This document shows positions 2,835 through 14,488 of a stretch of 64,000 nucleotides of DNA, one piece after another. The translations under genes were made by a program, and so were the position numbers. Source of the stretch: Alphaproteobacteria bacterium (GTDB taxonomy: Bacteria > Pseudomonadota > Alphaproteobacteria > Sphingomonadales > Sphingomonadaceae); the NCBI GenBank assembly GCA_030426245.1, contig JAUHYZ010000004.1, forward strand, positions 1 to 64,000, in the 5' to 3' direction. The number at the start of each line of letters is the position of its first letter. The first letter of the stretch is position 1. The notes beneath the pieces are model-generated. The model was not told the DNA's origin. It saw nothing but the letters and a program-made list of their open reading frames with translations, and did not search any database.

Positions 2835-3296
2835 CTAGCCGAAGCGCGGTACGTCCGGATTGGCAAGGTCCAGAACATGCGAGACGTTCTTGCCCTCTAC
2901 CGCGTGGAAGCCCAGCCTTTCGTAAAACATGGCCCCAGCAGGTGTCGTTGTCCTGAGGCGCAACAGCACAAAGCATTCCCTGGCTCGCGCGACAATCCGA
3001 TCCACCAGCGCGCGGCCAATGCCCGCCCTGCGAAAGTCGGCAAGAACATAAAGATGCCGCACACGCCCGATTGCGGGATCACCGAGATATGGATCCTGGT
3101 TGAGCCCGCCGATCCCGACCAACCTGCCATCCAGCAATGCCGTGTAGTATGCTTCGCCTTCCCTATCGAAGCGGTTCGCCCCGGCGGCCCAATCCCGCTG
3201 CAACCGCTCCATAAAGGCAAAGCCCTGGCTGCCTGCTTCGGCCGCCAATGGGCCGATCTCCGGGCCAAGCGTGCCGGTTTCCTCGATCCTCACCAT
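2835..3296 (-). CDS. GNAT family N-acetyltransferase
   Basis: RHLYVLADFRRAGIGRALVDRIVARAR acetyl-CoA binding motif; start taken at MVRIEETG. Confidence 0.8.
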   Translation of the reverse strand: MVRIEETGTLGPEIGPLAAEAGSQGFAFMERLQRDWAAGANRFDREGEAYYTALLDGRLVGIGGLNQDPYLGDPAIGRVRHLYVLADFRRAGIGRALVDRIVARARECFVLLRLRTTTPAGAMFYERLGFHAVEGKNVSHVLDLANPDVPRFG

Positions 3297-3339
3297 CCCG
3301 CATCCCCTCGATCCGGTGCCGACACGCGAATGAAGGCGT

Positions 3340-5187
3340 CTAGTTGATCTGGCTCCCTCCGAAGTCTGCGATGCCAATGTCGTTAGGCGTGACCTTCAGA
3401 TAGCCCTCATCCTCGTCATACTCTACCTTGTCGACATATCCGCTATTGTCCCGGAACCATTCCGCCAGCTCGCCCATTTGCGCCGATCCCAGCAGCGCAT
3501 CGGCGCTCGCCTCAGTGGCATTTCCGTTACCAATTCGGCGCATCAGGTCTTGTAGGTTGCTCGGGCCGAAACGTTCGACAAGTGCCGGATCATCTTCCGG
3601 CCCTGGCGTTACCGTGTCGAAGACGTTGAAGCCGCCAAAGCTCGCGCGCGGCGGGGAAGCAGGTTCTGGCAGAGCCTCCAGCGCACGGCCAATATCGCGC
3701 GCTTGTTGCGCATAGCGATCCCGATCAGCGCTAGTCGCGGTTTGATCGAGCGCGAGATGAGCGAAGCCGACCTGCTGGATGCGAAGTTTGCGATGGTAAT
3801 GCGAATAGAGCCGCTCCAGCGCCGGGCGGATCGGATCTTCCGGCGCCATTTCGCGGACCGCATTTGCCGCTCCCCTCGCCTCCTCCGTCAGGGTATCGAC
3901 ATCCTGCCGCTGCGGATACAGGCCCGGCGGCTGTTCGTTGCGTACGCTATGCACGTCAAGCTCACCTCCCGATGGCACCAACGGATCAGCGACCACAAGC
4001 GGCGGGATCATGCATTGGTAGTGCTGGTCGATTTCCTCCTGCGTGAGAGGTTGCATCTGATCTTCGGGCAAGCTGCTGTCGCTTGCCGGATTGAGGACGA
4101 CTCCCCCGATCTGTTCGAACACATCATCGGGCAAGGGCTTGCCTGCGACCCACCCTTGCAAGAAACGACGCGTTTCATCGCTGATCTGCACCTGTTCCTC
4201 GATCGCCCCGATCTTGTCGGAATACATCTGGCGACGTCCGGCATCCTGCTCGACCAACCGCGCGGCATGCAGGGAGTGATAATCGTCCAGCACGTCCTTC
4301 AGTACGCGCAGATAGCTGCGCGCATGCGACGCCCTAGACGCTGGGTCGAGATCAGGCTGGCTCAGCAGCTCGCCATATCCGCTCAACTGGGTCAATTGGT
4401 CTTGTGTCGTGCGATGCCGCGTCAGCCAGTTGGATGGCCTCTCCTCACGCCCATCGACGATTTGCAGGCATTCGTCTGTTGGAGGTGCCAGCGGGCTGAA
4501 CAGCGCGGGCGGATCAACCTTCGTGCGTTCCAGCAGCGTGCGCCAGTCCGGATATTCGATACCATTCTGAAGGGGCTGGGCGTCCTCCTGATCTTGCTGT
4601 TGCTCCTGGCTACTTACCTGCTGTTGAACCTGCGGTGGCGCACAAGGATCCGGTGCGTTTGACTGTGTCTGCCCAGATTTCTTGCGCCATTCGCCATGCC
4701 CGCTCAGGTGCGATTTTCCGGTCGGGTTGAGATACAGAAAGCCCGACTCCGGTCGAATGCCAATTACGCTGGGATCCCAATATCCTCGCTGCTGTTCGGG
4801 GTCGTAGGTGGCTGTAACGTCAATGACAAACATTTCGCCATCGCGCGATTCATGCTGCGTGGTGCCGTCCGGGCCATAGTGGAATACCTCGCGAAAGCCG
4901 CGAAAAACGATCATGCCTGGCTGGTAGCCATACTCTTCGGTATATTGGTTGAGGCTGGTCAGCCGCCCTTCCACGCCGCCATCAGCGGACAATGTAAATA
5001 CCAATGTTCCGCCAGTGGGGTCAGTGTGATCGCCCCACGGGCTGTAGGAAGTCCAGGTGCCCAGCAGCCAGCCGAAATCATCGCATCTACGCTCAAGCTG
5101 GGTCCCAGATGACTGGGCGAAAGCAGGAGCGGAAAAGGTAACCGCCACCGCCACGCCTATTGCAGAACATAGTGCACGAACATCCAT
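3340..5187 (-). CDS. secreted hypothetical protein with N-terminal beta-barrel-like domain
   Basis: 615 aa ORF with clear signal peptide (MDVRALCSAIGVAVAVTFSAPAFAQ); no family recognised. Confidence 0.7.
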   Translation of the reverse strand: MDVRALCSAIGVAVAVTFSAPAFAQSSGTQLERRCDDFGWLLGTWTSYSPWGDHTDPTGGTLVFTLSADGGVEGRLTSLNQYTEEYGYQPGMIVFRGFREVFHYGPDGTTQHESRDGEMFVIDVTATYDPEQQRGYWDPSVIGIRPESGFLYLNPTGKSHLSGHGEWRKKSGQTQSNAPDPCAPPQVQQQVSSQEQQQDQEDAQPLQNGIEYPDWRTLLERTKVDPPALFSPLAPPTDECLQIVDGREERPSNWLTRHRTTQDQLTQLSGYGELLSQPDLDPASRASHARSYLRVLKDVLDDYHSLHAARLVEQDAGRRQMYSDKIGAIEEQVQISDETRRFLQGWVAGKPLPDDVFEQIGGVVLNPASDSSLPEDQMQPLTQEEIDQHYQCMIPPLVVADPLVPSGGELDVHSVRNEQPPGLYPQRQDVDTLTEEARGAANAVREMAPEDPIRPALERLYSHYHRKLRIQQVGFAHLALDQTATSADRDRYAQQARDIGRALEALPEPASPPRASFGGFNVFDTVTPGPEDDPALVERFGPSNLQDLMRRIGNGNATEASADALLGSAQMGELAEWFRDNSGYVDKVEYDEDEGYLKVTPNDIGIADFGGSQIN

Positions 5188-10451: not shown

Positions 10452-10476
10452 GGAACGGTGCAGATCGCCTGGCGTT
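10452..10476 (+). promoter_or_regulatory. putative EcfG (general stress sigma) promoter GGAAC-N16-CGTT
   Basis: GGAAC at 10452-10456, 16-nt spacer, CGTT at 10473-10476; upstream of small ORF 10622-10705. Confidence 0.5.
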
Positions 10477-10520
10477 ACCAACAATCGACTTGGTTGCAAA
10501 ATACGCAACACCGGTCAAAT

Positions 10521-10537
10521 TTTTCGCACTTGCAGCA
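10521..10537 (+). repeat. 17-nt direct repeat copy 1, TTTTCGCACTTGCAGCA
   Basis: Identical to 10833-10849; diverged third copy at 10812 (TTTTCGCAACTGCACAC). Confidence 0.6.
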
Positions 10538-10621
10538 TCGAGAGACGGAGACCATTTGCGCCGCGTGGAAGTTCTGGGGCTGGGTGTCCACAGGAAGTGT
10601 TTAAAAATAAGGAGAAAAACA

Positions 10622-10705
10622 ATGCGCACTGTTACGAGCCACGTGCTGGTATTTCTGGCTGCCGCTTCGACCAGCGGCCTGCTGCTGAGCTCCGCGATCG
10701 TCTGA
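10622..10705 (+). CDS. 27-aa hydrophobic small protein (candidate)
   Basis: MRTVTSHVLVFLAAASTSGLLLSSAIV; strong SD AAGGAG 7 nt upstream; predicted single hydrophobic segment. Confidence 0.45.
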   Translation: MRTVTSHVLVFLAAASTSGLLLSSAIV

Positions 10706-10832
10706 TCGCCGAAAGTTTGAGCGTAGAAGGCCATTGATCCTTGCGAATGCTCTTTCTGGAATTTCCAGGACACGCATTTTTATTACCGAGCGCTGAAACT
10801 TGTCGTTGAGTTTTTCGCAACTGCACACGAAG

Positions 10833-10849
10833 TTTTCGCACTTGCAGCA
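10833..10849 (+). repeat. 17-nt direct repeat copy 2, TTTTCGCACTTGCAGCA
   Basis: Exact match to 10521-10537. Confidence 0.6.
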
Positions 10850-10934
10850 AGAGCCCGCTGAAATCATATGGCAGGCAAGATAAGCAAAGAGGTGGATGAC
10901 CGAGAAGGTGACCGCTTTGAACAAGGAGGACACC

Positions 10935-11024
10935 ATGATCGTGTTTGTGAAAAAGATACTCGATATGTATGTGCGGGCCGCGGCGAGCATACCTATGCCC
11001 ACGCCGATGATCTGGACTCTCTGA
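10935..11024 (+). CDS. 29-aa small protein (candidate)
   Basis: MIVFVKKILDMYVRAAASIPMPTPMIWTL; excellent SD AAGGAGG at suitable spacing; followed by terminator. Confidence 0.45.
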   Translation: MIVFVKKILDMYVRAAASIPMPTPMIWTL

Positions 11025-11056
11025 GCCTGAGAAAATTGCATATCGGCAAGAATGCG

Positions 11057-11081
11057 CGGCCGCCCATCGGGCGGCCGTTTT
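11057..11081 (+). terminator. Rho-independent terminator
   Basis: Perfect 9-bp stem CGGCCGCCC-ATC-GGGCGGCCG followed by TTTT. Confidence 0.75.
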
Positions 11082-11162: not shown

Positions 11163-11867
11163 TCAACCCCTGGCCAGTTCGCTCAGCAGGAATGCCAGCA
11201 CGACGCCCATGGCCGTGGCGATCCCCGTCCAGTGCCGGTCTTCCCGGTAGGCCTGGGGGAACACCTCGGTCGCCAGGCTGGCAACCACAGCCCCCGCTGC
11301 AAAGCAGCGGATAAAGGCCAGCAAATGGGGGCTGGCGCCTGCCAGCAGCAGATTGCCTGCCAGAGCCGCCGCGGATAGCAGCACCGCCGTGGCCGCCCAA
11401 ATTCCCATGATTCGCCATTTGGAGTGCTCGCCCTGGGCCATCTGACGCGCACCGCCTGCCGCTTCGGGCAGGTTGGACAGGAAGATCGATCCCGCCAGCG
11501 CCGCCACTTCCAGCGGTTTCGCGCCGATCAGCGCGACGCCCAGCGCGAGATTTTCTGGCACGCCGTCCAGCGTGATCGCCGCCAGCAGTCCGCCGCCCGA
11601 TTCAGGCCCCCATTTCTCGTCGATCCAGTAATCGACTGCGGCAAACACCGCCGCGCCCGCCAGAACGCCGGCCATCGCCATATAGACGGAGCTTTCCCGG
11701 ATCGCCGGCTCGATCAGTTCGCTGACCACCGAAAGCAGCAGCGCCCCGCCCGCCAGCGCGATCAGGAAGCCTTCCTTGCGCTTGTGCAGAGTGCCGAAAA
11801 TTCCCCAGGCCGCGCCCAGCAAAAGGGCAGCAGAAACCGCCAGAACCACAAGCAGGGTGACAAGCAT
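11163..11867 (-). CDS. ZIP family metal transporter
   Basis: Polytopic; AITLDGVPENLALGVALIG matches the ZIP TM4 HxxPE-type motif region. Confidence 0.75.
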   Translation of the reverse strand: MLVTLLVVLAVSAALLLGAAWGIFGTLHKRKEGFLIALAGGALLLSVVSELIEPAIRESSVYMAMAGVLAGAAVFAAVDYWIDEKWGPESGGGLLAAITLDGVPENLALGVALIGAKPLEVAALAGSIFLSNLPEAAGGARQMAQGEHSKWRIMGIWAATAVLLSAAALAGNLLLAGASPHLLAFIRCFAAGAVVASLATEVFPQAYREDRHWTGIATAMGVVLAFLLSELARG

Positions 11868-11881
11868 CGCAGATCCCTTAA

Positions 11882-14488
<2,607 letters not shown>

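Follow-up and report, generated by a model that had tools for sequence, protein, structure and literature searches.

Two overlooked microprotein genes between guaA and gyrB of a Novosphingobium-like bacterium and their possible place in a LysR-type regulon with an alpha-r8 sRNA

Very short reading frames between well-known genes are easily passed over, and the guaA-gyrB interval of a Novosphingobium-like bacterium raises the question of whether two of them are genes and, if so, what controls their transcription. The window considered here is the whole stretch of 64,000 nt that was analysed, and the features of the interval are collected in Table 1. An earlier note on this DNA had pointed out both reading frames, with their Shine-Dalgarno (SD) sequences and a terminator behind them, and had assigned them to the general stress regulon under one EcfG promoter. 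The frames, the SD sequences and the terminator were all found at their places; the promoter assignment found no support.

Table 1. Features of the guaA-gyrB interval, in positions of the window
Feature	Position	Strand	Remarks
guaA	8829..10403	-	left flank, divergent from unit A; synteny
EcfG-type match GGAAC-N16-CGTT	10452..10476	+	chance-level, excluded from the system
Unit A element	10493..10534	+	GTTGC-N7-GCAAC, N12, TTTCGCACTTGCA; 23/23 consensus positions, best in the window
Unit A -10 CCATTT	10552..10557	+	17 nt after CTTGCA
SD AAGGAG of ORF A	10609..10614	+	from the sequence; SD kept in homologues
Microprotein A gene	10622..10705	+	27 aa, MRTVTSHVLVFLAAASTSGLLLSSAIV; predicted single membrane segment
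Unit B element	10805..10846	+	GTTGA-N7-GCAAC, N12, TTTCGCACTTGCA; 22/23 consensus positions, second best
Unit B -10 TCATAT	10864..10869	+	spacing as in relatives (CCATAT)
SD AAGGAGG of ORF B	10923..10929	+	from the sequence
Microprotein B gene	10935..11024	+	29 aa, MIVFVKKILDMYVRAAASIPMPTPMIWTL; predicted amphipathic, conserved P..P..W tail
Intrinsic terminator	11057..11081	+	perfect 9-bp stem CGGCCGCCC-ATC-GGGCGGCCG-TTTT, 3-nt loop
ZIP-family transporter gene	11163..11867	-	at the site of the second urcA of same-genus relatives
gyrB	11957..14488	+	right flank; synteny

Two short genes and their homologues

The interval holds two previously overlooked genes of 27-29 residues, called here A and B. 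The 51-nt terminator fold has a free energy of -26 kcal/mol (z -2.9). The same contents recur within the genome bin, which is 79% complete and bears signs of two strains: a second gyrB-ZIP-microprotein-guaA copy (G000:C42, L095), terminator included, has intergenic DNA 92% identical and proteins 96-98% identical to those of the window, and it probably stems from a second strain, which would make this a mixed metagenome bin. Besides the second urcA, the window lacks the urcA gene that same-genus relatives carry between A and B; in another genome (G076, L196) a ZIP gene likewise occupies the same place.

Homologues were collected across the family, first with each peptide as the query and afterwards with small alignments; weak matches to A (E above 0.01) rest on the pattern only. 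Homologues of A were found in about 30 Sphingomonadaceae/Erythrobacteraceae genomes, most of them adjoining guaA and/or gyrB, and those of B in about 15 genomes; Pelagerythrobacter, Aurantiacibacter and Alteraurantiacibacter are among the genera with microprotein homologues beside guaA/gyrB. For A we kept the 42 distinct sequences of length 26-29 whose starts, stops and strand had been checked, and these are 27 aa long in 35 cases and 26 aa in 7. One A-like ORF, in the genome G109, has 32 codons. B is 27 aa long in 18 of 21 sequences and 29 aa in the bin studied here.

Both reading frames are conserved as coding sequence in relatives, and the codon substitution patterns that the earlier note had suggested comparing there show an excess of synonymous changes in frame. 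Precisely, differences at the three codon positions number 170:74:254 for A and 50:19:87 for B, hence they are concentrated at third positions, and frame-shifted controls for both have no such pattern. The dN/dS ratio is about 0.4 for A and about 0.3-0.4 for B (0.31-0.42 over the two), as estimated from pairwise comparisons at 65-75% minimum identity in which pairs are not independent. The comparison clearly points to real genes under purifying selection. We also weighed the reading in which RNA is what is conserved, the A and B transcripts being sRNAs and the ORFs by-products: a promoter common to an sRNA family (see below) would suit it, but the prevalence of synonymous changes in frame only, the constancy of codon lengths and SD sites, and the want of any Rfam match above gathering in the window, where a scan of the region at a loose threshold returned sub-gathering matches only, make it hardly credible.

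Neither microprotein had a match in Pfam or NCBIfam at E up to 1 or in a profile search of the PDB, and no description of them or of the promoter element presented below was found in the open-licence literature searched. All 42 members of the A set contain a 19-residue segment with a mean hydropathy of at least 1.6, and A is thus predicted to be a single-span membrane peptide. B has no hydrophobic 19-residue segment; its high hydrophobic moment and net positive charge are those of a predicted amphipathic membrane-surface peptide. Ibs/Ldr-type toxins are small and hydrophobic, and A, which resembles them in both respects, might be a type I toxin paired with an antisense RNA rather than a regulated membrane peptide. 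We consider this very improbable: A has a fixed chromosomal place and a conserved activator-type promoter, several genomes have it ahead of B in what looks like an operon, and no antisense element was noticed on unsystematic inspection.

Some ORFs of the same kind are more divergent or differently placed. In the guaA-gyrB region of four loci (L342, L370, L389 and L391) there are A-like ORFs of 25-27 aa with no above-background element just upstream, which suggests another control in Erythrobacter-type lineages. In Novosphingobium species (L319, L324) a 26-aa ORF, MTIVERTFGLAAALGVSALAFALTLA, lies with an SD downstream of the element and is probably a divergent A.

Promoters of A and B

The EcfG-type match on which the stress assignment was founded does exist, and it agrees exactly with the consensus. 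Its frequency, however, is that of the background: a shuffled window has 0.69 matches in the mean, at least one turns up in 47 of 100 shuffles and the window itself contains one, while the whole genome has 41 matches vs 75 for the reversed control. At the orthologous place in seven relatives no site was found, not even when the pattern was relaxed to GGAWC-N16-20-GTT, and the near-identical second copy in the same bin has GGATC at the site. In Sphingomonas melonis the EcfG motif is GGAAC-N17-20-GTT, and GGATC variants occur among its listed targets (PMC6599016), so that the site in the second copy need not be dead and is not decisive alone; it is the other tests that count. The match also lies 49-73 nt upstream of the divergent guaA, and one EcfG promoter for both ORFs fits badly with a conserved promoter in front of each, ORF B having its own element. 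We therefore rejected EcfG control, for which frequency at background and lack of conservation were the grounds: the match is most likely due to chance, and transcription of both ORFs by EcfG from this site is scarcely believable.

Two strong repeated elements had been missed in the earlier note, one upstream of each ORF. Their consensus is GTTGC-N7-GCAAC-N12-TTTYGCAYTTGCA-N17-YCATWT, in which the second half, TTTCGCACTTGCA, overlaps the -35 sequence CTTGCA. After these two elements the next best score in the window is 17. They lie 87 and 88 nt before the start codons of A and B, respectively, and comparison with relatives shows that an element is kept upstream of both ORFs, with CCATTT, YCATAT or a near variant at 17 nt in most A and B promoters. 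In relatives A, urcA, B and the second urcA each have their own copy; in two genomes (G020 and G194) a single element precedes A and B together.

The dyad GTTGC-N7-GCAAC, of the T-N11-A type, is combined with TTTCGCAYTTGCA at the fixed N12 spacing in the 154 sites that we collected by that very pattern. In the loci compared, the RF00519 model discussed below begins 24 nt after the element, from which we infer transcription starts at about 10558-10565 for A and about 10870-10877 for B. Counted from starts so placed, the T-N11-A box would sit at about -65, where LysR-type activators bind.

We considered as well whether these could be purely promoters of RpoH. Several genomes of the same order have groES promoters with the sequence CTTGAC-N17-CCCATAT, with the spacing and the -10 of CTTGCA-N17-CCATWT, but this core does not discriminate, since CTTGAC-N17-CTATAT is the usual housekeeping promoter in Alphaproteobacteria. 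The upstream block, GTTGC/GCAAC with TTTCGCA, is more conserved than the core, and a sigma factor alone would have no need of it. An RpoH promoter is thus improbable, if less so than an EcfG one, and we proceed with activation through the upstream dyad.

The element in other loci and its candidate regulator

A genome search found the element in 132 of 201 family genomes, the reversed pattern being rare. About 70 of the 154 distinct sites precede a conserved leader, usually followed by a gene for a CDC48-like ATPase. By Rfam this leader is RF00519 (MmgR/suhB, alpha-r8) wherever it was scanned, above or near gathering. The ATPase gene, once a candidate for a direct target of the element, was rejected as such when the leader proved to be the RF00519 sRNA. 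Comparison shows RF00519 directly 3' of the element in the genome studied here, at all 14 of the further loci scanned and at most of those rescanned. In this genome (L163, G000:C50, minus strand) the element at 3634-3663 is followed by the sRNA at 3533-3610, between genes for a CoA-transferase and the CDC48-like AAA ATPase, a layout that recurs in many genera. Beside the LysR gene described below, at 2950-3306 of another locus (L172; also in L146 and L147), the element occurs twice in tandem, with an RF00519 sRNA after each copy. Downstream of at least 28 of the 154 sites there is a urcA gene, as at one locus of the genome studied here (L164); most other urcA loci examined have no element. Control by UzcR, which the urcA genes had brought to mind, was set aside, its published site CATTAC-N6-TTAA (PMC8963506) differing from the element by inspection.

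In several genera a LysR gene, whose product begins MRRLPPL, is divergent from the element. The protein has LysR_substrate and HTH_1 domains, and its closest solved structure is 8y6u (GcvA; E 3e-39). Of the 201 family genomes, 163 have a single strong match to its profile, and 24 genomes of other families have none. The element occurs in 126 of the 163 genomes with this LysR vs 6 of the 38 without it (Fisher p 2e-12), and by genus in 69 of 78 vs 2 of 18 (p 4e-10), a co-occurrence that is confounded by shared ancestry. Three of the six element genomes lacking the LysR are below 80% complete; 37 genomes have the LysR and no element. In same-genus relatives no element adjoins the LysR gene, and in the bin studied here (79% complete) the profile search did not find it.

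Together these comparisons make it probable, in our judgement, that A and B are separately transcribed microprotein genes of one LysR-activated regulon that also comprises the alpha-r8 sRNA and urcA, against which stands the retention of an A-like ORF with no element at three loci (L342, L370 and L389). In the mechanism that we propose, the single-copy GcvA-like LysR most likely binds GTTGC-N7-GCAAC, whose centre would lie about 60-65 nt before the start, would bind also the second half-site overlapping the -35, and would recruit polymerase to CTTGCA-N17-CCATWT. Each mRNA would then begin with some 60 nt of leader and carry a strong ribosome site. The signal that raises the sRNA, probably a cue from nutrients or the envelope, would at the protein level yield the two peptides, A spanning the membrane once and B lying at its surface. 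That A and B serve this nutrient or envelope response we infer from co-regulation only.

The regulon could instead be real and have another activator, for example a sphingomonad orthologue of LsrB/VtlR, the co-occurring LysR being only a syntenic neighbour. The T-N11-A site that LsrB binds in an sRNA promoter, TGCA-N6-GCAT at -72 to -57 (PMC10746234), is close in form and place to the element; VtlR controls the AbcR sRNA and small proteins (PMC7486931); and the bin studied here lacks the MRRLPPL LysR. The presence of this LysR, however, tracks the element across genera, and its gene is often divergent from an element; we regard another activator as unlikely, though well ahead of the RpoH reading, and retain the GcvA-like LysR as the candidate.

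Known systems and meaning of the regulon

The closest parallel by description is the LsrB/VtlR-AbcR system of Rhizobiales, in which a LysR protein controls trans-acting sRNAs (AbcR1, NfeR1) and very small proteins (Atu1667, BAB1_0914 and BAB2_0512) (PMC10746234, PMC7486931), by way of a T-N11-A site that is similar in form and lies at about -57 to -72 (PMC10746234). The arrangement described here would resemble it; we do not claim membership. The sRNA here is alpha-r8 (MmgR), the candidate LysR is GcvA-like and urcA is included, and the small proteins, which are set beside those of Rhizobiales by description, lie between guaA and gyrB.

As for the sRNA, the one behind the element matches RF00519 above gathering and shares its family, alpha-r8, with MmgR of Sinorhizobium meliloti and with SisA-D of Caulobacter. 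MmgR has been reported to be under NtrC and AniA in S. meliloti (PMC7143759). Many copies here share one promoter type, whereas SisA-D have no common promoter motif (PMC12559287), and for this reason the link between element and sRNA is lineage-specific. Genes of the UrcA family (TIGR04433) stand between and beside A and B in relatives, with the element; Caulobacter urcA is under UzcRS, whose UzcR site is unlike the element (PMC8963506). The candidate LysR shares with the GcvA group, activators of glycine cleavage, its closest solved structure, but no glycine-cleavage target was seen here, and GcvA is likely only a distant relative.

On balance we lean, with some reserve, towards an undescribed LysR regulon of Sphingomonadaceae/Erythrobacteraceae that unites alpha-r8 sRNA(s), two microprotein families of near-fixed length (~27) and UrcA. 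If this is true, one signal sets off a response with two arms, one of RNA and one of peptides. Two unannotated microprotein families would be present in many genera, the alpha-r8 sRNAs of sphingomonads would gain a candidate transcriptional regulator, and the arrangement of LysR, sRNA and small proteins known from Rhizobiales (LsrB/VtlR) would have a counterpart in another order. Since the element is long and exact, any genome of the family could then be searched for the members of the regulon.
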